Source: Bacteroidota bacterium (GTDB lineage Bacteria > Bacteroidota > Bacteroidia > Flavobacteriales_D > Crocinitomicaceae). From it: a stretch of 51,705 nt of DNA. The number at the start of each line of letters is the position of its first letter. Position 1 is the stretch's first letter. The DNA lies in the NCBI GenBank assembly GCA_947378245.1, contig CANCJF010000004.1, positions 1-51,705 on the forward strand, written 5' to 3'. Under the pieces are notes generated by a model. The model worked only from the letters and a program-made list of their open reading frames with translations. It was not told where the DNA came from and did not search any database. A program made the translations under genes and the position numbers. Of the stretch, positions 5,266-51,705 are shown piece by piece.

Positions 5266-5414
5266 ATTTTTTTACACAAAGTAAAAAAGAGGTCTGTGAA
5301 GTAGATGGTGGAATTAGAGGTCACAGAGATTTTTTAACTTTGTTAGAAAACAGAATCTCAAAAAAACGCTGAGAAAATAGATTCTAAATTTCATTTATTT
5401 TGTTTTGTACGGAT

Positions 5415-5429
5415 TAATTTTATAAATTA
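5415..5429. promoter_or_regulatory. Inverted repeat TAATTT-tat-AAATTA flanked by direct GTACG repeats; candidate TA operator
   Basis: Palindrome 21 bp upstream of the antitoxin ATG. Confidence 0.35.
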
Positions 5430-5449
5430 GTACGTATAATTAACTTGTA

Positions 5450-5707
5450 ATGGACACAAAACTCACACTCAAACTGGATAAATTTGTAGTGGAAGGAGCA
5501 AAAGAATATGCTTCTTCACACAATAAAAGTTTATCTCGTTTAATAGAATCCTATTTAAAGTCTTTACTGAATAATGAGAATCAGCCTACTGAGGAAGATT
5601 TTGAAATTACTCCTTTTGTTAAAAGTCTAAAATCTGGGGTGAAAATTCCGAAAGATTTTGACGATAAAAAGGGCTATGGTGACTACTTATCAGAAAAGTA
5701 TACATAA
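5450..5707 (+). CDS. Antitoxin of a VapBC-like pair (DUF6364-like)
   Basis: KLTLKLDKFVVEGAKEYASSHNKSLSRLIESYLKSL RHH-like N-terminus; 1-bp overlap with a PIN gene. Confidence 0.75.
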   Translation: MDTKLTLKLDKFVVEGAKEYASSHNKSLSRLIESYLKSLLNNENQPTEEDFEITPFVKSLKSGVKIPKDFDDKKGYGDYLSEKYT

Positions 5708-6135
5708 TGGATACACTTTTTTTAGACACCAACGTTGTCATTGATTTACTTGGTGAACGTGAAGATTTTTATGATGCAATCGCTAAAATAGTTTCTCTCG
5801 CTGATAAAGGGAAAGTCAAACTTACGGTTTCAGCACTGACTTATTCTACTGTATTTTATGTCCTTACTCGTTTTGAATCCAAAGAAATTGTAAAAGAAAA
5901 GATACGAAAATTTAAGATAATTGCTAAAACAGCAGATTTAACAGATAAAATTATTGATAAAGGATTAGCATCTAAATTTACTGACTTTGAAGACGCATTA
6001 CAGTATTATTGTGCGCTTAAATCTGGAAGTTCAATGATATTAACAAGAAATGAAAAAGATTTTAAGTCCTCCGAAATTCCAGTTTTTAACCCAAACGAAT
6101 ATTTAAGTAGACTACTATCGAATCCTCAACGATAA
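5707..6135 (+). CDS. PIN-domain toxin (VapC-like)
   Basis: LFLDTNVVIDLLGEREDFYD, DFEDALQYYCA, ILTRNEKDF. Confidence 0.85.
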   Translation: MDTLFLDTNVVIDLLGEREDFYDAIAKIVSLADKGKVKLTVSALTYSTVFYVLTRFESKEIVKEKIRKFKIIAKTADLTDKIIDKGLASKFTDFEDALQYYCALKSGSSMILTRNEKDFKSSEIPVFNPNEYLSRLLSNPQR

Positions 6136-7067
6136 AACGCCAATATTTTATCGGCAAGTACATCACTTAATTTATAATAACTTTCTGTCGTCCAACCTCC
6201 CACATGTGGGGTTAGGATGACTTTCTCAGATGCGATTAGTTCTTGAAAGACGGATAAGCGTTCACTGTCTGAAAAATTCTCAAAACTTGCTTTTTCAAAT
6301 TCAAGAACGTCCAATCCAGCACCTTTCACTTGACCCTTTGAAATGGCATTCAATAATGCTTGCGTATCCACAATTTTACCTCTAGAAAGGTTTAATAGGT
6401 AGATTGGTTTTGCAAGCGATTCAAAAAAGTGTTCATTGACCCAATAGAGCGTTTCTTCATTTTGCGGAATGTGAAAACTAATGACATCAGCTTCTTGATA
6501 GAGTTGTTCTAAAGACACTTGCGTTACGAAATCATCTGTAAGATTGTCTACGTATTTATCATAGACTAACACCTTTGAATCAAATCCGCGTAGTTTTTTA
6601 GCAAAAGCACGACCATTGTTTCCATAACCAATGATTCCAACGGTTTTTCCATCCAATTCTTCTCCACGATTTCCTTCACGATCCCAAATCCCTTTTCGAA
6701 CTTGTTGGTCTCCTTGTATAAACTTATTAAGTAACGCTAATAACATTCCTAATGCATGTTCCCCAACTGCATTTCGATTGCCTTCAGGAGCATTAAACAG
6801 CTGAATGTTACGTTCGCGAGAATAGGCTTCATCGATATTTTCCATACCAGCTCCTGAGCGAGCAATGAATTGTAATTTTGGAGCGTATTTTAAGAAAGCT
6901 TCGTACATAGGAAAACGAGAACGAATGACGATTCCAACAGCATTTTGTAATAAGGAATGACATGTTTCTAAATCAGATTTTGTAGCATCTATACATTGAA
7001 ATCCTTCGCTGGTTAAGCGTTCTTCTAAAATTGGATGGACTGTATCTAAAAAAACAACTTGCATCAC
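6126..7067 (-). CDS. D-2-hydroxyacid / 3-phosphoglycerate dehydrogenase family
   Basis: GKTVGIIGYGNNGRAFAKKLRGF Rossmann motif; LLNLSRGKIVDTQALL; LTPHVGGWT. Confidence 0.88.
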   Translation of the reverse strand: MMQVVFLDTVHPILEERLTSEGFQCIDATKSDLETCHSLLQNAVGIVIRSRFPMYEAFLKYAPKLQFIARSGAGMENIDEAYSRERNIQLFNAPEGNRNAVGEHALGMLLALLNKFIQGDQQVRKGIWDREGNRGEELDGKTVGIIGYGNNGRAFAKKLRGFDSKVLVYDKYVDNLTDDFVTQVSLEQLYQEADVISFHIPQNEETLYWVNEHFFESLAKPIYLLNLSRGKIVDTQALLNAISKGQVKGAGLDVLEFEKASFENFSDSERLSVFQELIASEKVILTPHVGGWTTESYYKLSDVLADKILAFYR

Positions 7068-8740
7068 TTGCGTACTTCTTGACCTTTTGAATATGTTTTA
7101 TCTAAAATGATCTTACCTGTGGAGTCGAACATACGAAATTTACCCTCTTTTAGTCCATTTTTATATTCAGATTCAGAAATTTTTTCACCTCTGCGACCAA
7201 ATTGGGTCATTAATCCAGCTAATTTTCCATCCTTGTAATTCGTAATAACAGCTGGCAATATGCCGCCAGGTAAGTAATCCACCCATTTACCATCTTTTTC
7301 ATCGTTTATATAATGTCCTTCTTCAGTTAAGGCATAATCTTTCATGGAATAAGACGCGTGATATCCATGACGTACACTTTCTTTCACTTTTCTACCTTTT
7401 GTAAAGCCATAATCGATTGGTGCAGCTTTTTCTAAGATTTTATAGGTGTTGATGTCTTCTACTTTTCCATTGTCATAGTATTTCGTCCATTTCCCTACTT
7501 TATACCCTTCTTTGTAGAATCCAGTTAAGGTAACTGTCCCATCCATAGCCCAAGAATGCCATAGTCCATGTAATAGACCGTCTTCAAACGTAGATTGATT
7601 TTTTAATGTAGAGTTTTGCCAAAAGTTTTTCCAAATCCCTTCTTCCTTTCCCTTGACGTATTTCCCTGTCATCAATAAAGTTCCATCCTCATACCACGTT
7701 TCCCATAAACCATCTTTCAAATCGTTGGAGTAGGTTCCAGCTTTAAATAATTTCTTGTTTTCGTAGTAATATTCCCATTTACCCTCGCGCTTATCTTGTT
7801 TGTAAAAAGCTTTGTAAGAAACTTCTCCGGTAGGGTAGTAATAGATCCAATTTCCATCTTGCTTATTGTTGACAAAAGTTCCCTCCATGTCTTTCCCCCC
7901 TTTGTTGGTATACCAAAACCACTTTCCTTCTTTTTTCCCAGCGACATAATTTCCGGTTACATTCAGTACTTTGGTGTCATAGAAGTAGGAGTAAGGTCCT
8001 TCTAATAAACCATTTTTATAATTACTGATTTTTTCTAAGTCACCTGTATAGTAGAAATATTTCCATTCACCATCTTTTCGTTCTTGTTTGAAGAATCCCG
8101 TCAAAAACAAATACCCATTGATACTTCTTTCCTCAAATATACCATCGCGTAACCCTTCTTTGTAATTATATACTTCTTTGACTTTTCCATTCGGGTAATA
8201 GGTTGTTTTGTTTCCTGTTCCATTTTTGATAGTACGTGTATGTAATGAATCATCATTCCAAAAATCTTTCACCATACAGATGGTATCTATATATTCTTCA
8301 ACCGATTGTTCACGACCATCCATATAATATTTTCTCCAAATACCAAATGGTCTCCCATTTTTGTATTTCCCTTCTACAACTAGTGTTCCATTTTCCACCC
8401 ATTCGCGGTAAATCGAATCTTGTTTATCTAGTTTAAAATACCCTTCTTGGCGTGGTTTTCCATTCGCATATTTTAAGAAAATTTGACCATGTAATTTTTC
8501 GCGGTAATAAGTGCGAATTTCTTCAATGTCACCAAACTCGTTGTAATATTCCCATTTTCCATGTTTATCTCGTGTTTCTCCTAATCGATCTTTGTAATAG
8601 GATCCAACTGACTGAATTTTAGTTTTTTTAAAATCCCAAAACAATTTATCTTTTTCAGTTAAATTTTCTTTTTTAACAGTTTGAGCGTTAGAAACTAAAG
8701 AGAAACATAACACTAGTAAAACAAGAATTTTTTCAAACAT
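7064..8740 (-). CDS. Secreted MORN_2 / YwqK-like repeat protein
   Basis: About 18-20 repeats of the type YxNGKxxxxxxYKxGxxxGxWxxY; signal peptide. Confidence 0.85.
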   Translation of the reverse strand: MFEKILVLLVLCFSLVSNAQTVKKENLTEKDKLFWDFKKTKIQSVGSYYKDRLGETRDKHGKWEYYNEFGDIEEIRTYYREKLHGQIFLKYANGKPRQEGYFKLDKQDSIYREWVENGTLVVEGKYKNGRPFGIWRKYYMDGREQSVEEYIDTICMVKDFWNDDSLHTRTIKNGTGNKTTYYPNGKVKEVYNYKEGLRDGIFEERSINGYLFLTGFFKQERKDGEWKYFYYTGDLEKISNYKNGLLEGPYSYFYDTKVLNVTGNYVAGKKEGKWFWYTNKGGKDMEGTFVNNKQDGNWIYYYPTGEVSYKAFYKQDKREGKWEYYYENKKLFKAGTYSNDLKDGLWETWYEDGTLLMTGKYVKGKEEGIWKNFWQNSTLKNQSTFEDGLLHGLWHSWAMDGTVTLTGFYKEGYKVGKWTKYYDNGKVEDINTYKILEKAAPIDYGFTKGRKVKESVRHGYHASYSMKDYALTEEGHYINDEKDGKWVDYLPGGILPAVITNYKDGKLAGLMTQFGRRGEKISESEYKNGLKEGKFRMFDSTGKIILDKTYSKGQEVRK

Positions 8741-8749
8741 AATCGTAGG

Positions 8750-9388
8750 TTAAAAATTTTTAAGAATTCCTTGAAGTAATAAAACTACTCCAAACAAAAA
8801 TAAGATGGATCCGGTAATTCGATTCAATGAACCTAATAACTGATCGGTTATAAAGGGACGAAGTTTTTTAGCTCCAATTATTTTTAGTACATCAATGGAA
8901 AAAAATGTAATTAATAAAACACCAATAAATAGGATATTATCTAACCAGCTATCTACTCCATGTTCAGTCCCTAGAGCCATGACACTAAACCAATAGAATA
9001 TCACCATTGGATTCACTAAATTTAGCATTAAACCTTTCAAAAATTGGATTAAATAATCTTTAGAGGTATGATTGGTGTTTACTATTTCTTCTTGTGATTG
9101 AATTTTTGATTTTTTAAAAAAAGAGACAAATCCATAAATAATAAAGAGTCCTCCACTGATTGCTTTTAACAATTCAGTATGTTTTCCTTCAATTAATTTT
9201 GCAACTTCACTATAGAAAATGTAGGCAATTGCAATATAAATCAAATCACTAATTAAAATCCCTAAATCAAAAGCTAGAGCTGATTTAACTCCTTTTTTAA
9301 TACTTGTTTCTAGGAGTAAAAAAAAAGCAGGACCAATCATTAAACTTAAAATTAATCCAGTAAAGATGGCTTTGAATACTAATTCCAT
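8750..9388 (-). CDS. LysE family translocator
   Basis: AIFTGLILSLMIGPAFFLLLETSIKKGVKSALAFDLG; NLVNPMVIFYWF. Confidence 0.85.
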   Translation of the reverse strand: MELVFKAIFTGLILSLMIGPAFFLLLETSIKKGVKSALAFDLGILISDLIYIAIAYIFYSEVAKLIEGKHTELLKAISGGLFIIYGFVSFFKKSKIQSQEEIVNTNHTSKDYLIQFLKGLMLNLVNPMVIFYWFSVMALGTEHGVDSWLDNILFIGVLLITFFSIDVLKIIGAKKLRPFITDQLLGSLNRITGSILFLFGVVLLLQGILKNF

Positions 9389-14265: not shown

Positions 14266-16581
14266 TTATTTGAATTTAAAGTTATAGGTAATACCTGGGA
14301 TCCATTTAAACAAGGAAGTTTGAACTGCCTCTGATTTATTTGGATTATTTTCATTTGCTCTAAAATCGATACGATAAGCATTTTCTCGTCCATAAACATT
14401 GTAGATCGAGAAGTTCCAACTGCTTTCATAGGTTTCAGTGCTTTTGCGAATCCAAGTTACACCTAAATCTAAACGGTGATAATTAGGCATGCGGTATGCA
14501 TTACGATCTGTATATACATATTGTGTTTCGCCATTTACAGTATACTTACCACTTGGGAAAGTAACTGCGTTACCTGTGTAAAAAACAAAAAGTGCTGAAA
14601 TACTCAATTTAGGTGTCAGGTCGTACATAGCAACTACGGACAAATCATGTGTTCTATCTTGTTTTGCACGATACCAATCATTATTGTTAATGCCTTCAAT
14701 TTTACGTTCAGTTTTGGATAAACAATAGGAAATCCAACCATTTAATTTTCCTTTTTTCTTTTTCAAAATAAACTCAAGTCCGTATGCTCGACCAATACCA
14801 TATAATAATTCTCCTTCTAATTTTTCATTGGCTTGAACGTCTGCACCATTTCGGTAATCGATCTGATTTTGTAAGGTTTTGTAGTAGCCCTCCACGTTGA
14901 ATTCGTAAGTGTTTTCAGTAAAATTTTTAAACCATCCAATTGAACCTTGATCTGCAATTTCAGGTTTTGTGTTCAATGTCGAACTCAACCATGTATCCGT
15001 CGGAGAAGAGGTTGTAGAATTGGTAACTAAATGGATATTTTGAGCATTTCGTGCATAAGCAAATTTAAAACTTGCACTTGGATTGTAGGCGTAACTAACA
15101 GAAACTCGTGGTTCTAAATTGAAGTATGTTTTGATATATTGATTGTCAGTGTAGTTGTGTGTAGCACTCACTTTACCTGCAGCATCATAACTATAGGTAT
15201 CCTGACCATTTCCGAGTAATGAAAAACCACTTTCGCGTATTCCATAGTTGACGGATAATTTATCATTTACTTCCCATTCATTATTGATAAATAGTGAACT
15301 CTCGATCGATTTCACTTCATTTAAATGCTGTGATGTAATTCCTGTACCTGAAAATTGACCTGGAGTAATACCATGTTTGATGACATTAAATCCAAATTTG
15401 ATTTTGTTTTTTGCATTTGCATAATATTGAAATTCTTGTTTTAAGTTGTAATCTTGTACTTTAGATTTCACTGTAAAGCTTACTCCATCTCCTTTAATAG
15501 CTATCTGATAATCGTATGAACTATATATTAAAGAAGTATTAGAGAATAATTTTGGCCCAAAAATATGGTTCCAACGTACCGTTCCCGTTGCATTTCCCCA
15601 ATCAATCCCAAAACTTGATCCAAATCCTAGTACGTCACGACCAAAATACCCTGAGGCATACAATTTGTTTTTGTCGTTAATACGGTAGTTTAATTTCGTG
15701 TTTAAATCATAAAAATATAAGGTGTTGTCTTTGTATTTGTCAGAAGCTTTTAGGAACATATCTACATACGTTCTACGTCCTGTGATTAAAAATGATCCTT
15801 TATCCTTTACGATAGGACCTTCAACGTTTAGCTTTGAAGAAATTAATCCCACTCCTCCACTCACATTATAACGCTTATTATTTCCTTCATTCATCTTGAT
15901 ATCTAGTACAGATGATAATCTTCCTCCAAAATTAGCAGGTTGATTCCCTTTGTAAAGTGTAGCATCTTTTAAGGCATCAGAATTAAAGGTAGAGAAAAAC
16001 CCAAGTAGGTGAGAAGCGTTATACACAGGAGCTTCGTCTAATAATATCAAGTTTTGGTCGGATCCACCTCCTCGTACATAATAACCTGTATTTCCTTCAC
16101 CAGCACTTTTGACACCAGGTAATAATTGCAGGGTTTTAATAATATCTTTTTCACCTAAGAGTACGGGTATTTTTGCAATTGCTTTAGGGTCTAATCGTTC
16201 AACTCCCATCGTTGAACCTTTAACATTATCTTGTTTGTTGATCGTAACCTTTGCAACTTCTAATTCAGTAGTCTTTTCAGTTGGCGTTTCCAAAATGAAA
16301 TTGAGTGCAAGATTCTCTTTTAAATCAATTTCTTTTTCTTGTTGAGAATATCCAATGTATGAGACTAACATGGTGTATTTACCTTCTGGAATTGTTAACG
16401 AGTAAAAACCATACTCATTACTTGCTACCAAATAAGCTTGGTCTTTAATACGTATTTTCACTCCGATTAAGGCTTCACCTTTTTTTTGCTCAGTGATAGT
16501 ACCGCTAATGGTAAATTTGTTTTGTGAAAAGCTCAATATACAGATGCTTAAAAACACAAAAAGAACAAGATACTGTTTCAT
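14266..16581 (-). CDS. TonB-dependent receptor with carboxypeptidase-regulatory-like N-terminal domain
   Basis: FTISGTITEQKKGEALIGVKIRIKD; GYYVRGGGSDQNLILLDEAPVYNASHLLGFFSTFNSDAL plug. Confidence 0.92.
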   Translation of the reverse strand: MKQYLVLFVFLSICILSFSQNKFTISGTITEQKKGEALIGVKIRIKDQAYLVASNEYGFYSLTIPEGKYTMLVSYIGYSQQEKEIDLKENLALNFILETPTEKTTELEVAKVTINKQDNVKGSTMGVERLDPKAIAKIPVLLGEKDIIKTLQLLPGVKSAGEGNTGYYVRGGGSDQNLILLDEAPVYNASHLLGFFSTFNSDALKDATLYKGNQPANFGGRLSSVLDIKMNEGNNKRYNVSGGVGLISSKLNVEGPIVKDKGSFLITGRRTYVDMFLKASDKYKDNTLYFYDLNTKLNYRINDKNKLYASGYFGRDVLGFGSSFGIDWGNATGTVRWNHIFGPKLFSNTSLIYSSYDYQIAIKGDGVSFTVKSKVQDYNLKQEFQYYANAKNKIKFGFNVIKHGITPGQFSGTGITSQHLNEVKSIESSLFINNEWEVNDKLSVNYGIRESGFSLLGNGQDTYSYDAAGKVSATHNYTDNQYIKTYFNLEPRVSVSYAYNPSASFKFAYARNAQNIHLVTNSTTSSPTDTWLSSTLNTKPEIADQGSIGWFKNFTENTYEFNVEGYYKTLQNQIDYRNGADVQANEKLEGELLYGIGRAYGLEFILKKKKGKLNGWISYCLSKTERKIEGINNNDWYRAKQDRTHDLSVVAMYDLTPKLSISALFVFYTGNAVTFPSGKYTVNGETQYVYTDRNAYRMPNYHRLDLGVTWIRKSTETYESSWNFSIYNVYGRENAYRIDFRANENNPNKSEAVQTSLFKWIPGITYNFKFK

Positions 16582-40634: not shown

Positions 40635-41453
40635 ATGATTACAAACGTAGATTTAATTGATGTTAAAGAATTAACAAGTATAGTTCAAGAGAAGTATAAT
40701 GAAGATTTTTCTGAATTTGCTACTACTGCGTATCGACGAAGAGTTGAAAAAGCTGGGAATGATTTGCGAATTCCTACAATGAGTGTTTTGTTGGAAAAAA
40801 TCAAAACCGATCCAGCGACTTTTCAAAAGTTTAAAAAACAATTAATTATCCCTACCACAGAGTTTTTTAGAGACCCTTCTTTTTGGAGAAAATTAAGAGA
40901 AGAAATAACAAAAAAACATAAAGCAACTGCTTTTAGAGTTTGGGTTGCTGGTTGCTCTTCAGGAGAAGAATTGGTTTCTCTTGCTATTTTATTGAAAGAA
41001 TTAGATATTTACGATAATAGTAAAATACTCGCGACTGAAATAACCGACCAAGTTTTTGCGGATATTAAAATGGGGAATTTTGAGGCTAGAAGTATCGAAA
41101 CAGGAGAAAGTAACTATGAGCGTTTTGAAGGTAAAAAGAAGTTTGCTGATTACCTTAAAACTTCAAATGGTATTACAACTATTGATACGTCATTGCTTTC
41201 TAATGTCACTTTCCAAGCTTCATCAGTCGATCTATCGGAAGTTACAGGAAAATTTGATTTAATCCTTTGCCGTAACGTTTTCATCTATTGCAATCTTAAT
41301 TTGCAAGATAAAATGATTAAAAGCTTTGAACAGCGTTTATTCCCATCTGGATTATTCGCTATCGGAGTGAAAGAATCCTTAAATTCTTCTCGTTACAAAA
41401 ATTCTTTTTTAGTGGTTTCGGAAGAAGAAAATATTTTCAAAAGCAAAATGTAA
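40635..41453 (+). CDS. CheR-type protein-glutamate O-methyltransferase
   Basis: TEFFRDPSFWRKLREE, RVWVAGCSSGEELVSLAILLKEL, FDLILCRNVFIYCNLNLQDKMIKSF. Confidence 0.9.
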   Translation: MITNVDLIDVKELTSIVQEKYNEDFSEFATTAYRRRVEKAGNDLRIPTMSVLLEKIKTDPATFQKFKKQLIIPTTEFFRDPSFWRKLREEITKKHKATAFRVWVAGCSSGEELVSLAILLKELDIYDNSKILATEITDQVFADIKMGNFEARSIETGESNYERFEGKKKFADYLKTSNGITTIDTSLLSNVTFQASSVDLSEVTGKFDLILCRNVFIYCNLNLQDKMIKSFEQRLFPSGLFAIGVKESLNSSRYKNSFLVVSEEENIFKSKM

Positions 41454-41565: not shown

Positions 41566-43773
41566 ATGTTTAAAAATATCAACACTAAATTAAATCGTAA
41601 GTTCTCTGTTGTTTTTGGAGTGATAACGATTACCGTTTCTACCTCTTATTTGCTTAATTTTTGGTTTAATAGTACGTTAAAAAGCGATGCTGTTGTAACG
41701 GAATTAGCTGCTCAAAATAAGATATCTGCTCAAAAAATGGAGATGCAATTAACAAAGTTGTACTATGCAAACGAGGAAGAGAGTATTGAAACATTAAAAA
41801 ATGAAATTCAGGAGACTTCCATTTCTTTTCGTAAGAATTTAGCAGTCATAAAATTAGGTGGTGATTATTACGATGAAGAAGAAAAAGTAGTTGTCAAACC
41901 AGCGATAGAAACTACCTTGAAAAATGAAATTTCAGAAATTGAGTCTGTTTTTGGTGGTTTAATGCAAAAAGTAAACATCATCATAGATCAATCTAAATAT
42001 GTTCGATTAAAAGCTTCTGATACACTTAAAACATCGAAGGTTCGATTGATTAATCCTGTTTTTGATGAAACTTTTACGAAGTTGAATATTTATTTAAAAA
42101 ATAATGATTTAATTGCTGACAATCAGGATTTACTTAACATTTTAAGTAAAAAATCAAAAGAAGGTAAAAAGTTTTTCGTGGAATTAATGATTTTCTTGTT
42201 GATTACAAATGTGTCTTTGATATTCTTAACTTATTTATTCTTAAGAAGAAATTTAAAACCAATAGAAAGTATTACAGATTATGTAACTCGTTTGTCGGAT
42301 GGAGAATTACCAAATGATATCCACACGAAGTCAAAAGATGAAATCAATGAGATTGCATTGGCAGTAAATAAGTTGGGGTCAAATATCAATGCAGCTAGTT
42401 CATTTGCGGCAAGTATTGGAAGTGGAAATTTGGAAACAGACATTGTCGTTTTTAACAATCACGGAAAATTGTCTGAATCCTTGCGTTCAATGCGAGATAG
42501 TTTGGTTAGTGTAGCCGATGAAGAAGCAAAAAGAAATTGGGCTACAGAGGGATTTGCAAAATTTGTAGACATCATCCGATCTACAGATAATATCGAAGAG
42601 TTTTATAATAATATTTTAGGGAATTTAATTCGTTATTTAAAAGTAAATCAGGGCTACCTGTACATTGTCAATGATCAAAATACGGTGGAGCCATTTATGG
42701 AAGTTCAGGCAGTGTACGCGTATGGGAAGAAGAAATACTTAGAGGACAAAAAGACCGCTCATTATAAAGAGGGATTAATAGGTCAAGCATGGTTTGATAA
42801 AGAAGCTTTATATTTTACGGAAATTCCAGATAATTATGTCTATATAACTTCTGGTGTTGGTGAATCGTTGCCAAAAGCTTTATTAATTGTTCCACTCGTA
42901 ATTAATGAAGTAGTGGTAGGTGCTATCGAGATCGCTTCCTTTAAAGAACTACACCAATACGAAATTGATTTTGTATTTAAATTAGGAGAAACAATTGCTG
43001 GCGCAATACAGAATGTAAAAGTAAGCGAACGAACACGAAAATTGTTAACTGAATCCCAAGAACATACGGAACAAATGCGCGCTCAAGAGGAAGAGATTCG
43101 TCAAAACATGGAGGAGATGCAAGCGACCCAAGAAGAAATGGAACGTGCACAACGTGCGATGAAACAAGCGTTGGATTCAGCTAAAATTAAAGAACAAGAA
43201 GCAATCGCTATTCAAGAAGATTTTGAACACCAAAAAAACAGAATTCAAGCGGAATTTGACGTGCAATTAGCAATCATCAATGAAACAGCAATTGTTTCTA
43301 AAACAGATTTGCGAGGATATATTACGTATGTGAATGATATGTTTTGCGAAGTTGCTCAATATACACGGGAGGAATTAATTGGTCAAAATCACAATATTGT
43401 TCGTCACCCAGATATGCCTGCAGCTGCTTTTGAAGATGTTTGGAGAACAATTAGTTCTGGAAAAATTTGGAAAGGTCAAGTAAAGAACAAGAAGAAAGAC
43501 GGCTCTTATTATTGGGTTCAAGCAACAATCTCTCCAATTATCGGTGAAAACGGTAAACCTGTTGAATATATGGCGGTACGTTATTTAATTACGGATATGA
43601 AAGACCAAGAAGTTTCAAATATCCAACTTATCGAAACAATGCGTGCACAAGAAGAAGAAATTAAACAAAATTTAGAGGAAATTCAAACTACGACTGAAAA
43701 ATTGGAAGCAGTAATCAAAGACTATAAAGAAAGAGAAGAAAAATTACTACAAGAATTAAAAAACAAGGGGTAG
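41566..43773 (+). CDS. Membrane HAMP-GAF-coiled coil-PAS protein with no kinase, cyclase or MCP output domain
   Basis: TM segment VELMIFLLITNVSLIFLTYLFL then HAMP; GAF; Aer-like PAS (YTREELIGQNHNIVRHPDMPAAAFEDVWRTISSGKIWKGQVKNKKKDGSYYWVQATI); C-terminal coil only. Confidence 0.82.
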   Translation: MFKNINTKLNRKFSVVFGVITITVSTSYLLNFWFNSTLKSDAVVTELAAQNKISAQKMEMQLTKLYYANEEESIETLKNEIQETSISFRKNLAVIKLGGDYYDEEEKVVVKPAIETTLKNEISEIESVFGGLMQKVNIIIDQSKYVRLKASDTLKTSKVRLINPVFDETFTKLNIYLKNNDLIADNQDLLNILSKKSKEGKKFFVELMIFLLITNVSLIFLTYLFLRRNLKPIESITDYVTRLSDGELPNDIHTKSKDEINEIALAVNKLGSNINAASSFAASIGSGNLETDIVVFNNHGKLSESLRSMRDSLVSVADEEAKRNWATEGFAKFVDIIRSTDNIEEFYNNILGNLIRYLKVNQGYLYIVNDQNTVEPFMEVQAVYAYGKKKYLEDKKTAHYKEGLIGQAWFDKEALYFTEIPDNYVYITSGVGESLPKALLIVPLVINEVVVGAIEIASFKELHQYEIDFVFKLGETIAGAIQNVKVSERTRKLLTESQEHTEQMRAQEEEIRQNMEEMQATQEEMERAQRAMKQALDSAKIKEQEAIAIQEDFEHQKNRIQAEFDVQLAIINETAIVSKTDLRGYITYVNDMFCEVAQYTREELIGQNHNIVRHPDMPAAAFEDVWRTISSGKIWKGQVKNKKKDGSYYWVQATISPIIGENGKPVEYMAVRYLITDMKDQEVSNIQLIETMRAQEEEIKQNLEEIQTTTEKLEAVIKDYKEREEKLLQELKNKG

Positions 43774-43783
43774 AAAAAATGTG

Positions 43784-43853
43784 CGACTCCGCTGGAGTCG
43801 TGCAGTTTCATCAGCTTGCCTTTGGCAAGCTAGGTGTGACCTCTCTGAGGTCA
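43784..43853. repeat. Cluster of three short tri-loop hairpins
   Basis: CGACTCC-gct-GGAGTCG; AGCTTGCC-ttt-GGCAAGCT; TGACCTC-tct-GAGGTCA. Confidence 0.85.
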
Positions 43854-44010
43854 GCTAGATTTATTCATTCAAAAAATTGCTTTCATTGACTCAGTAGTAG
43901 TAGTGACCTGTTTAATAAGTCTTATTGTGCTTGACAAAGTGAAGTATTTCTTCTCAATCCGACCTCAAAGCAGTATAAATATAATTAAAATGGCTAGTAA
44001 TTTCTTTTTA

Positions 44011-44076
44011 TGACTCCGTAGGAGTCACATATTGCTTGCTGCAAGCAAGCATAAATAAACGACTCCAGAGGAGTCG
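44011..44076. repeat. Second cluster of three short tri-loop hairpins
   Basis: TGACTCC-gta-GGAGTCA; GCTTGCT-gca-AGCAAGC; CGACTCC-aga-GGAGTCG. Confidence 0.85.
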
Positions 44077-44084
44077 CACCTTGC

Positions 44085-45497
44085 TTATATCTTCACACTC
44101 AACGTAAAATAATAGGCATTCGTTGAATGGTTAAATTCTAATTTCCCTCCCAAATATTCTACTAATTTCTCACTGATCGGAAGACCTAATCCAAAGGTGT
44201 CCACTCCGGAGAGGGATGGGTTTGTGGAGGTATAAGTCGGATGGGTTATTGCTGAATGCTCTTTTTGGATGCTTTTCACTTCAAAATACAGAATACTATT
44301 GTTTATTTGACTACGCATACTCGATACAGAAATTAGTATTTTACTATCTTTTGCAATTAATTTTAAGGTACTACTCAGTAAATTATTAAGTATAATTGAA
44401 ATTTTTACTGCGTCAATGTTGATTTCAGCTGGTAAATCTTTCTCTACCTCGAAATCTAAAAATACATTTTTTGATATGGCATGAAAATAATGCGAAGCCA
44501 AAACTTCTTGGATTAAATCGACCAAGTTTGTCGTATTCACAGTTGTTGACTCTTGGTATTCAATTAATCTTTCATCATTTAACGCTTCATCGATTAAGAT
44601 ATTGATACTTTGACATTGATGTTTTAAGGTGTTTAATTCAATGCGTTGTTCTCCTGTTAAAGTAGAAATTACTTCTGGTGAGGAAATAGATGAAATGATT
44701 TTATATAAAGGAAATATGATTTCAGAAGAAAAATGGTTGATGAACGTGTTTTTTAAATCTAAATTTCGCTCGATAATTTTCTTTTCTTTTTTGATGATTT
44801 CATTTTCTATTTGTGAACTGATATCGGTAATGAAAATAAGAACAGAATGGGTTGAAGCATCTACCTCTTTTAATTTTGTAAGTTGAACCAATCCACGCTT
44901 TACACTATTTATATCAAAAACATGTTCAAATTGTAAATGTTGTGCTTCAGATAAGTAAAAATTATCGATTTTGGCACTTAGTTCTATATCAAAAATACGA
45001 TAAGAAGCTAAAGTGTCAATCGAATCATCGGGTAACTCAAAAAAACGATTAAAGGAAGAATTGTATGTCTCGATAGTACGTTTTAATGGCTCAAACACAC
45101 AAAATGAAATCGAAGTAGTTTGAAATATATCCCTAAACAATAGATTTTTAGTGAATTGTTTAGTTTCGTTTTCAAAAATGGTATGAATACCCAAAGAAAT
45201 AGCATCTAAATCATCTTCTATTTCTTCATTTACTAAGGTAGAAGCAACGGATTGTCCGTCAATTCTATGGGTGACTTGTTTTAGTATAAATTGTTGTTTT
45301 TGTAGCGTCTTTAAATGAGCTTCATACAAAAGATTTGCTTCTTTTTCTAATTCAATAATCACGTCTTCCTCGGAAGTTAGTGTTGGACAGGAAGAATTGG
45401 ACATACGTTTTAATAAAGTTAAGACGTTTGTCAATTTTGGATTTCCTAAGTCATAGGAAACGAATTGTTCCGTAGTGAATTTATTAGTAAGCTTCAT
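44085..45497 (-). CDS. PAS-type sensor histidine kinase homolog with degenerate phosphoacceptor site
   Basis: PAS-like region; HisKA-like FINHFSSEIIFPLYKIISSISS with Ser where His is expected; HATPase N-box ILNNLLSSTLKL and GLGLPISEKLVEYLGGKLEF. Confidence 0.72.
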   Translation of the reverse strand: MKLTNKFTTEQFVSYDLGNPKLTNVLTLLKRMSNSSCPTLTSEEDVIIELEKEANLLYEAHLKTLQKQQFILKQVTHRIDGQSVASTLVNEEIEDDLDAISLGIHTIFENETKQFTKNLLFRDIFQTTSISFCVFEPLKRTIETYNSSFNRFFELPDDSIDTLASYRIFDIELSAKIDNFYLSEAQHLQFEHVFDINSVKRGLVQLTKLKEVDASTHSVLIFITDISSQIENEIIKKEKKIIERNLDLKNTFINHFSSEIIFPLYKIISSISSPEVISTLTGEQRIELNTLKHQCQSINILIDEALNDERLIEYQESTTVNTTNLVDLIQEVLASHYFHAISKNVFLDFEVEKDLPAEINIDAVKISIILNNLLSSTLKLIAKDSKILISVSSMRSQINNSILYFEVKSIQKEHSAITHPTYTSTNPSLSGVDTFGLGLPISEKLVEYLGGKLEFNHSTNAYYFTLSVKI

Positions 45498-45626
45498 AAT
45501 GGGTAAATTATACGTATCAAATATACGTATTATTTTGATTGATTACGTATTAATTTTTGTAATTTTATTCTTTAGTATCTTATTTATCAGTATTTTTACT
45601 AAATAGTTAATCATTACCTTTTTTAA

Positions 45627-46322
45627 ATGGAATTTGCCTTAGTTTGTAACGAAAAAGGAATCGTGCAAGAGATCACTTTAGACACCTCTTCCCAATTAAC
45701 TATTGGCAACTCTTTATTTCCCTTCGTGGATTCATTTAGCATCCCGAAAATTCTTACTTTTTATCAAGAAATTGAGAATAAAGGAATTGCACTTAACTGG
45801 GAAATAAATTTTTGTTTTGAAGACATGCTTATAGCACTAGTAGTGTCTGGTATAAAAAGAAATAAAGAAATTCAAATTTTTGGATATTCTGCACACGACA
45901 ACAATCAAAAAATCATCGATGAATTAAGTGCAATTAATAATTCACAGAGTTTATTACTTCGTTCATCCATCAAAGAAAACATAAAGCACGCTGTACAGAG
46001 AGATCCAGAAAGTGATAAGGCATTTATTTTAAGCTTGCAAAATGAAAATAGATTATTAAAAAACCAAGTGATTTCTTCGAGTCGTATCTTTGAAAAACAA
46101 TTAAACGAACAAGAGCATAAAATCAAATTATTACTTAAAAAGGATAACGAATTAAAGGAAGAACTTTTGATTATATACGATGAAATTAAATGTTCCACAG
46201 AATTAATAATTAAGGATTACCGACAAGCGGTATTTACGAAGCAAGGAGAATTAGAAGAAATACAATCCCAACTTTTTGAGTTGAATTTACTAATCGAAAA
46301 GTGGGGTATAATTAAGGAATAA
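45627..46322 (+). CDS. PAS-like / coiled-coil signalling protein, no output domain seen
   Basis: PAS-like N-terminus; IIDELSAINNSQSLLLRSSIKE linker; long C-terminal heptad region. Confidence 0.5.
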   Translation: MEFALVCNEKGIVQEITLDTSSQLTIGNSLFPFVDSFSIPKILTFYQEIENKGIALNWEINFCFEDMLIALVVSGIKRNKEIQIFGYSAHDNNQKIIDELSAINNSQSLLLRSSIKENIKHAVQRDPESDKAFILSLQNENRLLKNQVISSSRIFEKQLNEQEHKIKLLLKKDNELKEELLIIYDEIKCSTELIIKDYRQAVFTKQGELEEIQSQLFELNLLIEKWGIIKE

Positions 46323-46323
46323 C

Positions 46324-47592
46324 ATGCCGAATCAATTAAATCAATTATTAAACCATAAAATAAAAACAGAATATTCTGTGAAGAATAATTGGGATTTAAC
46401 ATTAGAACTAAATCTCTTACTTACTTTTTTCTCACATCAGTCCAAGCAATTGCCAGTATTTATTTATTGGTTGGAGAATTATTTTGAAGCAGTAAATTTA
46501 CCTTTTTCTCTGCTTGAAAATTGTTTGTTAGAAATTGAACCAAAACATTTTTTGGTTCATAGCGACTTAAAAGAGAAGCTAAAAGTAAATAACAAAATAG
46601 AAGAAATAGGGCTTTGTACCGACTTGCACATTGAACTTTTTCAAACCATTGAGAAACATTCTAAGCCTGAATACAGAAGTTATATTTATAATGACGCGGA
46701 AAAACATTTAGAATTTTTAAAACAATCGATCGAAACGGATAGTATTATTTTATTTACGGAATACATCGCTTGGGCAAAAACAATGTTAAACGCTTTGCAC
46801 ATTGACACAAGTACCTTAATTCGCTTTTTGGTCACTTTACGTACTGTTTTTCATGTAAATAATCAGAAAAAAGAAGTAGCGTTTTTGGATCGTGGTATCC
46901 AAATGTTATTAGATGGAAATGTCGTTTCAGCAACTTCTGAAATCGCGTTTACCATTACTGAAGAATCCAAAAAATACTTAGAGCTTCTCCTTCTAAAAGA
47001 ACGAAATTTGGCTAAGAATTACATACTTGAGTTAGCGGATGGAGGAATGGATATTCGTGAAATATTCCTTGATGTTTTTCAAGCGACCCAATATGAATTA
47101 GGTAGATTGTGGGAATTGAATCGTATTACCATTGCACAAGAACACTACTGTACAGCTGCAACGCAAACCTTCATGGCAATGCTTACCGCACGTATTGTTC
47201 CAGAAAAATTAATTGGTAAAAAAGTGATTGCTACCTGTGTAGGTACTGAACAACATGAATTAGGGATACGAATTGTAAATGATTTCCTAGAAATGGAAGG
47301 TTGGGATACGTATTACTTGGGTGCAAATGCGCCGATGGAAGCCATTATCCTTGCCATTAAAGATAACCAACCAGATTTATTAGCACTATCGGTTACATTG
47401 ACACCACATGTTAAAAATGTGATTGAAATCATTCAAAAAGTGAAAAATATTTTCCCAACCATTAAAATATTAGTTGGTGGTTATCCTTTTTTAAGAGATA
47501 ATTCATTAGCAGAAAAAATTGGAGCAGATGGCGTCGCTTTAGATGCAAAACAAGCGCCTATAATTGCCTTAAAATTAGTGCAGAATTCTTAA
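46324..47592 (+). CDS. Cobalamin-binding (B12-binding_2 + B12-binding) protein, photoreceptor-like
   Basis: RLWELNRITIAQEH matches W-x9-EH; TEQHELG matches the ExHxxG variant of the B12 ligand motif; ILVGGYPF. Confidence 0.85.
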   Translation: MPNQLNQLLNHKIKTEYSVKNNWDLTLELNLLLTFFSHQSKQLPVFIYWLENYFEAVNLPFSLLENCLLEIEPKHFLVHSDLKEKLKVNNKIEEIGLCTDLHIELFQTIEKHSKPEYRSYIYNDAEKHLEFLKQSIETDSIILFTEYIAWAKTMLNALHIDTSTLIRFLVTLRTVFHVNNQKKEVAFLDRGIQMLLDGNVVSATSEIAFTITEESKKYLELLLLKERNLAKNYILELADGGMDIREIFLDVFQATQYELGRLWELNRITIAQEHYCTAATQTFMAMLTARIVPEKLIGKKVIATCVGTEQHELGIRIVNDFLEMEGWDTYYLGANAPMEAIILAIKDNQPDLLALSVTLTPHVKNVIEIIQKVKNIFPTIKILVGGYPFLRDNSLAEKIGADGVALDAKQAPIIALKLVQNS

Positions 47593-47610
47593 TTTTTTTC
47601 TTTCTAACTA

Positions 47611-48312
47611 GTGAAAAAAGTATTTGATTTTGTGCTAGACTCAATCTTCGAGCCATCCGAGGTCGCATTCCAGTGGAGAGAAGAAAAAAGAGAAGAGCAA
47701 TACCGTAACTACACCCTTGTTCAAGAAAAAAAGGTAATAGTTGTCACAAGTAGAGGTTGGGTAAGTAAAGATGGAAATGCATGCATGCGCTTCGCGCGCT
47801 TTCAAAACGAGCAAATCGACATTACAACGCTTATCATTTTCCCTACAAACGACACATCACTTTTTCCAATTTTTGTGGTAGAACTCGTGTTGGTGATGGA
47901 TAAAATTCATCGTTGTATTGTAGATGTGGAGCCCGTCACTTTGCTCAGCAAACCATTAATAGATACCTATTTTTCTTCTTTATACACGAAAAACCAAGAC
48001 CTTTTAGAACAATTAAATGACCGACCTGACTGGTTTACCGACATTCAATCGCCTTACGCTATTTACGCGACCTGTAATGCTTCGGAGGTGCATAAAGTGG
48101 AGACAATTGTAGATTCGTATTTCTCTATGTTTATGCTAGAATATATAAACGGTCAAAAATTACCAGTTTTTGAACAGGTCAAGGATCATGTTTCTGTTGC
48201 TGAATATAAAAAACACCATGTTGCACATTCTCCAGCAAAATCAATTATCAAGGGCGAAAATGAATCTTGGTTGAATCAATTTTTAGAACATAACCATTTC
48301 AAAATTCTATGA
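47611..48312 (+). CDS. Putative ferredoxin-dependent bilin reductase (HY2/PcyA superfamily), GTG start
   Basis: FARFQNEQIDITTLIIFPTNDTSLFPIFVVELVLVMDKIHRCIVDVEPV; QSPYAIYA; C-terminal EYKKHHVAHSPAKSIIKGENESWLNQFLEHNHF; 4-bp overlap with heme oxygenase. Confidence 0.65.
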   Translation: MKKVFDFVLDSIFEPSEVAFQWREEKREEQYRNYTLVQEKKVIVVTSRGWVSKDGNACMRFARFQNEQIDITTLIIFPTNDTSLFPIFVVELVLVMDKIHRCIVDVEPVTLLSKPLIDTYFSSLYTKNQDLLEQLNDRPDWFTDIQSPYAIYATCNASEVHKVETIVDSYFSMFMLEYINGQKLPVFEQVKDHVSVAEYKKHHVAHSPAKSIIKGENESWLNQFLEHNHFKIL

Positions 48313-48902
48313 AGTTATCTGAAAAGTTAAAAATAGCCACACAAAATGCACACAAAGAAATTGAGCAGTCTCATTACTTTAAACGACTTCTATCTCCCGA
48401 TTTAACAGTCGAGGAATATGTGCATATTTTGTGTTTATGGAAGACATTCCTTACCCCAATCGAAGCATCTTGGCAAAAACATGCGGAATCCAATTTGATT
48501 TTTTCAACCATAAATCAAAGAGGTAAAACCTACCGTTTACAATTGGACATAGATAATTTAGGAAAATTTTACCATCTTGCGAATTCGAGTGGGGCTGGCA
48601 AAAAGTTGCTTGCAAATGACTTCGATGTACAGAATCCATTGAGTTTAATTTCCTCTTTATACGTTATCGAAGGTTCCACTATGGGAGCAATGCATATTGT
48701 AAAACAGTTAATGAAGGTTGATTTTTGTTCGGAGAACACGACCCATTTTTACACACATTATGGAGAGGAAACGATTGCGATGTGGCAAACGTGTAAAATG
48801 GAATTGGACCATTGGGGAGATGAAAACCCAAATCTTCACAATCAGGTGTGTGATGGAGCGGTTCAATGTTTTCAATCGCTTGGAAATCATTTTAATGGTT
48901 AG
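48309..48902 (+). CDS. Biliverdin-producing heme oxygenase (BphO/HO-like)
   Basis: LKIATQNAHKEIEQSHYFKRLL (proximal His), SSLYVIEGSTMGAMHIVKQL, FYTHYGEETIAMWQTCKMELD. Confidence 0.82.
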   Translation: MKLSEKLKIATQNAHKEIEQSHYFKRLLSPDLTVEEYVHILCLWKTFLTPIEASWQKHAESNLIFSTINQRGKTYRLQLDIDNLGKFYHLANSSGAGKKLLANDFDVQNPLSLISSLYVIEGSTMGAMHIVKQLMKVDFCSENTTHFYTHYGEETIAMWQTCKMELDHWGDENPNLHNQVCDGAVQCFQSLGNHFNG

Positions 48903-49085
48903 TTGTTTAGCTATTAATTGAAAATTAAATTTGATTCCTTTTCAAGTTTAATAGATTAATCAAATATTTATAAGTAATTTTACTTATCAAAATGAAAAGG
49001 ATAGCATAATAGATTATGAATTAACTGTTTATTTTTGTAAAATTTAATTTTAATTATTTTTTTTGCACACAATTACGTATCTAAA

Positions 49086-51705
49086 ATGATCACTAAAACA
49101 AAAAATTGGTTTATTAAAAACATACCAGAATCGGACTCAGTTATTGAGAACCGTAGGTCTGCCTTGGTATTCCAATATTTGTTTATATATAGTTTAATAT
49201 TAGCTTTTTCGTACCCTTTTTTCTGTATAAAGCTCAATCTTTCTCAGATTTTCGTGAGTACACTTGGATTACTTGGTGCTATCATTCCCTTGTTTTTATT
49301 GCGTAGTTCACATTCGTATAAAATGGCTTCGATTGTTTACATATGCTTGGGATTACTTAGTAATACCTTGTCTATCGTTGTTTTTTCGAACGGAGTAATT
49401 GATGCGCGATTATTTACGTGGTTTTTAGTCCATATTTTGTTTGCGTTTTTTACCTTAGAAAAAAAAGCAGGGTTAATCATCATGGGCTTGACCATTGCGT
49501 TAAGTGTAATAATTCCATTTGGAAAGGAATTACCTATATTTTCCTCATTCTACCAAAATCAGGAGAATACGGTCCTATTCACTATTTTGTCCAATGTGCT
49601 CTCCTATATCTTTATCTATTTTATTTTAGATAGTTACATGAAGATTTTTCAGGCATCTGATTCACGAATTCAAGAGTTAATAGGAGTAAATTTGGATACT
49701 CAGAAAGAGATGATTGATATTCTGAATCAAAACCTAGCATTAACCGAAGAATTTAGTGAAAATCAACAGGTATTAGAAACCAATTTTGAGTTATTGCAAA
49801 ATTTAGATTTAAAAATTCATAACTCTGAAGAACAAACCTTAGCGATACATGATGCTGCTCCAGTAGGAATTCTTTTTTTCAATTTAAAAGGGGAGTGTGT
49901 TTACACAAATCCGAAAGCAACAAATATATTAGGATTAGAGAACGCTAGCAAAGAATGGTTAATGACCGTAATTGAATCTGACAAGGATAAATTAATCAAA
50001 AAATGGGATGCATTTATCGAAGAAAAAAGCAATTTTTCTGCAGATTTTCGGATTAATGTTTCGGAAAGTGAAAGATGGATTCAAGCACGTATTACACCCA
50101 TTCGTGAAAATGGAAAAGTAGTTTCCTTTATAGGTACCATATCGAATATTACGAATGCACATAGAGAAAAAGAATTGCTTTATGTTTTATTTGAAATGGT
50201 GGATCATACGTTAGATATTTTCTTTGTTACAGAAAAAGATGGAGATATTATTTATCTGAACAAAGCAGCGAAAACATTATTACGACCAAGTAAGGCCCAA
50301 CGATCTTTAAATGTATTTGATACCAATTGGATAGAATCCGATAAGGGTTGGATGGAAAAAGTGACAACACTAAAAGAGCAAGAATCCGCGAGCTATGTTA
50401 GGGAATCTAAAGATGATTTTGGGAAAGCTACAATTTTAGAAGTAACTGAAAGACTCTATACTTTTCGTGAGGTAGAGTATGTCATTACTATGGCGAAAGA
50501 TCGTACAGAGAAAATGGAAGATGAAAAGAAAATAGTACGAAACCGTTTGTTTTTGAAAAATGCCCAATCCATCGCAAAAACAGGTAGTTTTGAACGAAAT
50601 TTCACTACCAAAGAATACTTTTTTTCTGATTACCTCTATGAACTATTTCAAATACCACAAGACACCGATATTTCGCGTTTTGATTTCAGACAATATATTT
50701 CAAACGAGGATTATGAGTATGTAAATGCCATTTTTAAAGAGAAGATTCGGAAAGAAAAATCATTTAGTTTAATGTATCGTTTGGTGAATACGCTTGGTGA
50801 AATTATACCGGTTCATACGACTGTAGAAATTGTCCGAAGTAAATCGGGAGCTGTAAGTAAAATCAGTGGTACCATCCAAAATTTGACCGAACAGTATAAA
50901 ATGGATAAACTAAATAGAGAATTAGTTCAATTACAAAGCGATCAAATTAAAAACAAATTAGAAATCGAAGAGCGAACCTTGGATCTTATTGAAAAAAATG
51001 TACAAATGAAAGAAGAGCGTATACGTATTTCTTCTGTGTTAACAGGACAAGAAAATGAACGTAAGCGCTTATCGAGAGAATTACATGATGGTTTAGGACA
51101 AATGTTGACCGCGATCAAATTAAAGGTGGAAATGATCGATGAAAAAGCGGTAAATTCAGAAGATATTTTGAAATATATTTTAGAGATTAAAAAAGACATA
51201 AAAAACACCATTTTCGAAACCAGAAAAATATCCCAAGATTTGATGCCAAGCGCCTTAGAAGATTTTGGAATTGCCTCTGCTATACGTATACTTGCGGAGG
51301 ATTTTTCCAATGTAAAAGGGATTAAAGTATTGTTTAAAGAAAAGGATTTTAACTCAGATCTTCCTTCAGATATAAAAATAACGTTATTTCGTATTGTACA
51401 AGAAGCATTTTCAAACATTTCGAAACATTCAAATGCTACAAAATGTACCATTGAATTAAGCAACAAAAACGAAATCATTTATTTGAAAATTACAGATAAT
51501 GGTTCAAATTTTAGAAAAGACGTTTTTGGTTCAGGTTCAGGAATTGTTAATATGAAAGAAAGAACAGAATTGTTAAATGGACAATTTTTAATTAATCAAA
51601 CACAAGAAAACGGGTGTGATATTCAAATTAAAATTCCTTTAAATGATTCACCTTTGGTAGTTTTAACCCCTGTAAAATATCCTGGGGGGGGGGGGTATCT
51701 ACCTA
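49086..51705 (+). CDS. Membrane sensor histidine kinase (multi-TM + PAS repeats + HisKA_3/HATPase), incomplete at window end
   Basis: Frame open from ATG 49086 to window end; GQENERKRLSRELHDGLGQMLTAIKLKVEMI (HisKA_3), FRIVQEAFSNISKHSNATKC (N box), GSGSGIVNMKERTELLNGQF. Confidence 0.88.
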   Translation, partial: MITKTKNWFIKNIPESDSVIENRRSALVFQYLFIYSLILAFSYPFFCIKLNLSQIFVSTLGLLGAIIPLFLLRSSHSYKMASIVYICLGLLSNTLSIVVFSNGVIDARLFTWFLVHILFAFFTLEKKAGLIIMGLTIALSVIIPFGKELPIFSSFYQNQENTVLFTILSNVLSYIFIYFILDSYMKIFQASDSRIQELIGVNLDTQKEMIDILNQNLALTEEFSENQQVLETNFELLQNLDLKIHNSEEQTLAIHDAAPVGILFFNLKGECVYTNPKATNILGLENASKEWLMTVIESDKDKLIKKWDAFIEEKSNFSADFRINVSESERWIQARITPIRENGKVVSFIGTISNITNAHREKELLYVLFEMVDHTLDIFFVTEKDGDIIYLNKAAKTLLRPSKAQRSLNVFDTNWIESDKGWMEKVTTLKEQESASYVRESKDDFGKATILEVTERLYTFREVEYVITMAKDRTEKMEDEKKIVRNRLFLKNAQSIAKTGSFERNFTTKEYFFSDYLYELFQIPQDTDISRFDFRQYISNEDYEYVNAIFKEKIRKEKSFSLMYRLVNTLGEIIPVHTTVEIVRSKSGAVSKISGTIQNLTEQYKMDKLNRELVQLQSDQIKNKLEIEERTLDLIEKNVQMKEERIRISSVLTGQENERKRLSRELHDGLGQMLTAIKLKVEMIDEKAVNSEDILKYILEIKKDIKNTIFETRKISQDLMPSALEDFGIASAIRILAEDFSNVKGIKVLFKEKDFNSDLPSDIKITLFRIVQEAFSNISKHSNATKCTIELSNKNEIIYLKITDNGSNFRKDVFGSGSGIVNMKERTELLNGQFLINQTQENGCDIQIKIPLNDSPLVVLTPVKYPGGGGYLP

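Follow-up and report, generated by a model that had tools for sequence, protein, structure and literature searches.

A putative permuted photocobilin encoded with a heme oxygenase and a divergent bilin reductase in a Bacteroidota operon

What would a bacterium do with a bilin and a cobalamin made or bound side by side? The question is raised by a gene cluster at the end of contig CANCJF010000004.1 from a Bacteroidota bacterium (assembly GCA_947378245.1), in which genes of a B12-binding protein, a homologue of ferredoxin-dependent bilin reductases (FDBR), a heme oxygenase (HO) and several two-component signalling proteins lie together. The window analysed was this whole contig (51705 bp) of a genome of 3.0 Mb that was 92% complete. 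The original prediction, made from the letters alone, had proposed a candidate bilin and B12 light-sensing operon, and the present analysis supported it: the operon probably makes a photocobilin-type receptor together with its own bilin, feeding a NarL-type two-component pathway. All six predicted genes were confirmed by open reading frame (ORF) calls, with their coordinates and spacing. The features of the cluster are as follows.

44085-45497, minus strand: divergent PAS-like/HATPase pseudokinase (ORF call, Pfam, alignment)
45511-45549, no strand: TACGTA palindrome in three copies within the divergent promoter (motif scan)
45627-46322, plus strand: PAS/coiled-coil protein (alignment to partner kinases)
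46324-47592, plus strand: predicted permuted photocobilin, with a ~95-aa N-terminus, a photoglobin domain and a CarH-type helical bundle plus Rossmann part (Pfam, PDB, profile, AF2)
46612-46938, plus strand: photoglobin domain of the same protein, residues ~97-205, with D124 (46693-46695) and W150 (46771-46773) (profile alignment)
46948-47589, plus strand: B12 domain of the same protein, residues 209-422, with W263, E273-H274 (Wx9EH) and E309xH311 (alignment, structure match)
47611-48312, plus strand: divergent FDBR homologue, GTG start (Pfam, Foldseek, hhalign)
48309-48902, plus strand: heme oxygenase, PF01126 (Pfam)
49074-49079, no strand: TACGTA palindrome, 12 bp ahead of the gene for the HisKA_3 kinase (motif scan)
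49086-51704, plus strand: membrane PAS-HisKA_3-HATPase kinase, running to the contig end (Pfam)

The four genes between 45627 and 48902 were separated by gaps of 1 bp and 18 bp and then by a 4-bp overlap of FDBR and HO. For comparison, a near-identical sister contig (L011, from the metagenome-assembled genome (MAG) 'Flavobacteriia bacterium isolate Jr-7aug17-230') and the cluster contig of a diverged congener (L042, genome G116) were used, together with samples of 13 genomes of the genus (six of them at least 90% complete, several others incomplete), 240 of the family and 395 in a wider Bacteroidota sweep.

Photocobilins are said to build on the photoglobin family of Schneider et al. 2022. Pfam revealed only B12-binding (8e-24) and B12-binding_2 (2e-10) in the product of 46324-47592, at residues 228-409, while the best matches in a PDB search were the photocobilins 8J2W, 8J2X and 8J2Y (1.7e-21). 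A profile of the receptor family (17 members) aligned with SasPcob in permuted blocks, profile 146-347 to SasPcob 9-205 (134 bits) and 11-105 to 228-321 (8.5e-6), the latter being the biliverdin-binding globin domain, which was matched by the N-terminal block of the receptor. This N-terminal block of the profile also matched allophycocyanin (2.6e-4), and the N-terminus of a relative's receptor matched Pfam Phycobilisome (0.0014). The window protein is thus, as judged from these alignments, a likely member of the photocobilin family with globin first and B12 domain second, reversing the B12-then-globin order of the solved members. The published definition, a B12 domain fused to a photoglobin, sets no fixed order (PMC10979010), and BBD-CBD fusions have also been mentioned (PMC11796333). 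The N-terminus of the B12 protein had been named earlier as one candidate bilin acceptor, and it is there that profile alignment placed the photoglobin domain.

Counted along the profile alignment, Asp270 of SasPcob, the residue holding biliverdin (PMC10979010), corresponded to D124 of the window receptor and Trp296 to W150. AbPcob, which binds biliverdin weakly, has His at the Asp270 place (PMC10979010), and this His stood in the same column as D124. The CarH light signature was complete, with W263, E273-H274 (Wx9EH) and E309QH311, in which H311 is the lower axial His. All six residues (D124, W150, W263, E273, H274 and H311) were invariant in 16 receptors (window and L042-L056), in the split pair of L058 and in Azospirillum, and no conserved Cys for covalent bilin attachment was found in the receptor alignment. 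The AF2 model of the receptor had a pLDDT of 86, and its best structural match, confined to the B12 part, was 8J2W (Z 26.6; 208 residues at 2.2 A). By analogy with SasPcob, the receptor would bind a bilin and adenosylcobalamin (AdoCbl) and undergo photochemistry at the Co-C bond.

The heme oxygenase named in the original prediction was confirmed by PF01126 (6e-14, 52.9 bits against a cut-off of 23 bits); a candidate proximal His15 was seen by inspection (ATxxAH), and the distal GSTMG Gly helix was aligned to HemO. The bilin reductase was likewise upheld, by PF05996 (Fe_bilin_red, 5e-10, 39.8 bits against a cut-off of 31 bits) and by a model of which the top 22 Foldseek matches were all FDBR or RCCR (PebS, PcyA, PebB, HY2, RCCR), with Z 13.7 to PcyA. 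Matches of the window FDBR to PDB sequences were weak, its profile found nothing relevant among them, and the congener's copy had no Pfam match of its own; hhalign to PcyA, PebA and PebB gave an E-value of 8e-7. Both enzymes were single-copy in the genome. Compared with phage PcyA and plasmid PebA/PebB, the window FDBR had E91 at the Asp105 position, T73 at His88 and A62 at Glu76. Among published pre-PcyA groups, pre-2 has Asp105 and Asn88, pre-3 has Asp105 and Thr88, and pre-1 has none of the three PcyA residues; Glu at position 105 is not among the FDBR variants described there, and Bacteroidota are not named among the pre-PcyA carriers in the main text (PMC10151467). With Glu at 105 and Thr at 88 it matched neither pre-2 nor pre-3, so the window FDBR is best assigned, from fold and PF05996, to the superfamily and not to PcyA or to either of these groups. 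Between the two species 66% of its residues differed, with T73, E91 and the surrounding motifs unchanged.

The PAS/coil protein (45627-46322), named only as such before, could be defined more closely: it aligned to the first ~200 residues of the PAS-HisKA-HATPase kinases that partner photocobilins in other Bacteroidota and then ended, and it appears from this alignment to be a partner kinase without the catalytic half. The divergent gene 44085-45497 proved a degenerate kinase as predicted, with only a sub-threshold HATPase_c match in Pfam. Its HisKA phospho-acceptor His was replaced (SSE in the window and DKE in the congener, where AHD was expected), its G1 box was degraded in both species, and the N-box Asn was lost in the window copy. 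In the product of 49086-51704, Pfam agreed with the predicted PAS-HisKA_3 membrane kinase, identifying PAS, HisKA_3 and HATPase_c with an intact H-box (ELHDGLGQ). This gene was cut about a dozen codons short at the contig end (51705); the full length in L011 was 886 aa, followed downstream by two LuxR/NarL-type response regulators and then CheR.

Photocobilin, FDBR, pseudokinase and HisKA_3 kinase occurred in the same three of the 13 genus genomes (a 25% match to the pseudokinase in G109 was not counted as an orthologue), and only the window's own genome carried the cluster among the six that were at least 90% complete. This FDBR was found in 3 of the 240 family genomes, all in the genus. A PF05996 sweep of the 395 Bacteroidota genomes gave 0 matches and missed the FDBR of the source genome too, so it was discarded and redone with the FDBR alignment, which recovered that FDBR. 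The only other match in the repeated sweep (G296, 90 residues at 7e-4 within a 730-aa frame) was judged to be chance, as was a match in G134 (L010, 5e-4) with one stop and no related neighbours. The arrangement recurred in the congener at 31-60% protein identity and is therefore not a chance layout: L042 kept the order pseudokinase, PAS/coil, photocobilin, FDBR and HO. The HisKA_3 kinase, two NarL-type regulators and CheR lay upstream in L042 and downstream in L011, indicating that linkage had survived rearrangement.

Globin-B12 proteins of ~355 aa were present in several other Bacteroidota families. In 14 of the 14 loci inspected, the gene that followed at 0-100 bp in the same orientation encoded a kinase of ~400 aa; HisKA and HATPase were found in both kinases scanned with Pfam, and the rest were alike in alignment. 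In Azospirillum thermophilum a receptor of this layout also lay close to a kinase. Searches with PF01126 detected no HO in the 15 Bacteroidota genomes with photocobilins that were tested. Conservation of B12 protein, FDBR and HO, which the original prediction had set as its own refutation test, thus held for those members of the genus that carry the cluster and failed across Bacteroidota, where the photocobilin and PAS-HisKA kinase were kept without HO or FDBR. About 95 extra N-terminal residues occurred in the window and G116 receptors and were not seen in other family members, and in the receptor tree this pair stood on a long stem (1.72 changes per site, support 98/100), as would be expected if the system had changed its role on gaining HO and FDBR and losing the kinase.

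Several variants were observed among these relatives. L058 had the globin and B12 halves as two adjacent genes (4539-5060 and 5093-5602) before the same kinase, and L055's fused receptor was a close relative of this split version. Two further matches of the receptor profile, L059 and L060, had no globin residues and were excluded from the photocobilin counts; the L060 protein (4566-5672), from a class-mate, had the CarH signature with a different N-terminal half that had no globin Asp or Trp. Some photocobilin genes from genomes with no PF01126 HO had a gene of an ABM-family monooxygenase as a neighbour (L043 6089-6388, L044 6069-6380, L048 4481-4882). The ABM family includes IsdG-type heme-degrading enzymes, and this monooxygenase may be an alternative bilin source.

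The palindrome TACGTA preceded most transcription units of the island in which the cluster lies, and in both species the promoter region between the pseudokinase and PAS/coil genes held three copies of it. Intergenic DNA of L011 had 12 copies in 2.4 kb (0.6 expected) and that of L042 had 6 in 1.6 kb (0.85 expected); the motif was chosen by eye before testing, so that these expected values flatter it, and better evidence comes from its having recurred independently in L042. The positions were 45511-45549 and 49074 in the window; 5433, 5723, 7901-7939, 11464, 14817-14844, 15613 and 16604-16712 in L011; and 2428, 6583, 8968-9039 and 12395 in L042. In non-island intergenic DNA of the window, 3 copies in 3.3 kb (0.57 expected) suggested that the motif may not be confined to the island. 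A scan for sigma-70-like promoters gave nothing above chance. TAC-type half sites are common targets of NarL-family regulators, so the NarL-type regulators of the island would be candidate readers of TACGTA.

The following route could be proposed from the gene order, the homology to adjacent receptor-kinase pairs, the co-occurrence and the motif. HO would open heme to biliverdin, a possible substrate for further reduction by the FDBR homologue. The bilin would be held non-covalently by the globin domain (D124, W150), and AdoCbl by the CarH-like domain through H311, with W263, E273 and H274 around the adenosyl group. In the dark an AdoCbl-bound assembly would be expected, and green light absorbed by B12, or red light through the adjacent bilin, would cleave the Co-C bond and alter the assembly, both by analogy with SasPcob. 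The signal would then pass in trans to the PAS/coil protein, probably with the pseudokinase, and tune the HisKA_3 kinase and the NarL-type regulators, which may control the island through TACGTA sites. A more specific version is tentative and rather doubtful: the FDBR with Glu for Asp105 would make a reduced bilin that tunes the permuted photocobilin, whose signal would run through the kinase-less adaptor and pseudokinase to a NarL-type pathway regulating its own island via TACGTA. On that version it would be the first photocobilin with dedicated chromophore tailoring.

Several points weigh against this proposal. Matches in the fold search covered only the B12 half (~residues 209-422) and not the globin half, the pLDDT of the FDBR model was only 58, and the FDBR, without the canonical catalytic residues, may be weak or inactive. 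The HO frame was broken in G116 (L042 11721-12300), through MAG error or decay, and the lack of PF01126 HO in the relatives means that the bilin may not be universal in the subfamily. Binding and light response are predicted from comparison of sequences and structures, and contact of the photocobilin with any of the kinases is putative.

It is a realistic possibility that the photocobilin uses biliverdin only, with an FDBR that is inactive as a reductase or serves as a bilin carrier or remover. The changes of Asp105 to Glu, His88 to Thr and Glu76 to Ala would fit this, as would the receptor without a conserved Cys for covalent bilin; SasPcob uses biliverdin (PMC10979010), and BBAG-2 globins took up biliverdin even with FDBR co-expressed (PMC10151467). 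Retention of the FDBR beside HO in two species so far diverged, with T73, E91 and their motifs intact, speaks against this reading. HOs commonly serve iron release, and the 15 photocobilin carriers without PF01126 HO are in line with HO and FDBR being used for heme-iron recycling or bilin detoxification, the B12 protein being a cobalamin or redox sensor adjacent by chance. This is unlikely, since FDBR, HO and receptor travel together, the bilin-contact residues D124 and W150 are kept, and Pfam scans found no iron-uptake genes in the cluster.

Delivery of the bilin to an off-cluster phytochrome or other biliprotein was rejected as very improbable. Such a gene could be missing from an assembly that is 92% complete, and GAF proteins do exist in the island; against this, a bilin-type globin domain lies in the same operon, and, in line with the prediction that the window held no phytochrome, no PHY domain was found in this genome. 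Also rejected, as scarcely credible, was a corrinoid methyltransferase partner of MtgC/MtbC type in place of a photoreceptor. The best weak NCBIfam matches were indeed MtgC/MtbC, but all lay far below the cut-offs, photocobilin structures ranked first, the protein carried the CarH Wx9EH and a globin N-terminus, and no corrinoid methyltransferase was adjacent. The photocobilin-type receptor with its own bilin is preferred.

The original suggestion of a candidate undescribed system was not supported as such, since photocobilins (PMC10979010) and clusters of FDBR, globin and B12 protein (PMC10151467) were already published. Like SasPcob and AbDPcob (8J2W, 8J2X, 8J2Y; PMC10979010), the window receptor joins a CarH-type B12 domain and a bilin-binding globin in one chain, with Wx9EH, ExH, Asp and Trp kept. 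It differs in that the globin is N-terminal, a ~95-aa extension is added, no output enzyme is fused, HO and FDBR are encoded in the operon and the signalling partners are in trans. Nearest to the whole cluster are the pre-2 pre-PcyA clusters, mainly of Myxococcales, with FDBR, a bilin globin (BBAG-2), a B12 protein and sometimes HO (PMC10151467); here, globin and B12 domain are one protein, Glu stands at 105 and Thr instead of Asn at 88, the host is a member of Bacteroidota, and two-component genes are linked. The pairs of Bacteroidota and Azospirillum (L043-L056, L076) have the same permuted receptor beside a PAS-HisKA kinase, of which the Bacteroidota ones share the PAS/coil N-terminus, whereas their kinase is intact, no FDBR is nearby and the Bacteroidota genomes tested had no PF01126 HO. 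CarH/LitR repressors are alike in B12 domain and light signature; the window receptor has no DNA-binding domain and an added bilin globin.

In the literature covered, which largely excluded subscription papers, the receptor class is published, and no description was found of a permuted fusion that has HO and FDBR of its own and a decayed kinase in Bacteroidota. BBAG/pre-PcyA clusters have been proposed as ancestors of cyanobacterial light harvesting, yet what BBAGs do is described as unknown (PMC10151467). Here gene linkage, co-occurrence and a common upstream motif connect HO, FDBR, bilin globin and B12 domain with two-component signalling, so that the hypothesis of light sensing can be put to a direct test. 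If true, it would extend photocobilins to kinase control in trans in Bacteroidota and would show a way for a receptor-kinase pair to lose its kinase and gain chromophore enzymes.

Two further genes upstream in the window probably belong to the same signalling island.

40635-41453, plus strand: CheR methyltransferase, probably of the same signalling island (Pfam)
41566-43773, plus strand: HAMP-GAF-PAS signalling protein, probable island member (Pfam)

CheR and HAMP-GAF-PAS genes flanked the cluster also in L011 and L042, where large HAMP-GAF-PAS proteins with repeated PAS units lay with CheR genes beside it (L042 12478-18546, L011 16780-20502); genes of a ParA and a STAS protein also adjoined it in L011. 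The neighbourhood in L042 and L011 is a chemotaxis-like signalling island. Next to the pseudokinase gene, a unit of ~305 bp resembling a miniature inverted-repeat transposable element (MITE), with 24-bp inverted ends GCGACTCC..GGAGTCGC, was present as a single copy (43778-44082). L011 had three such copies (4456-4762, 5797-6060 and 6168-6472) around a gene of a LuxR-type response regulator (4766-5410), which was missing from the window, a difference due to either repeat recombination or assembly collapse.

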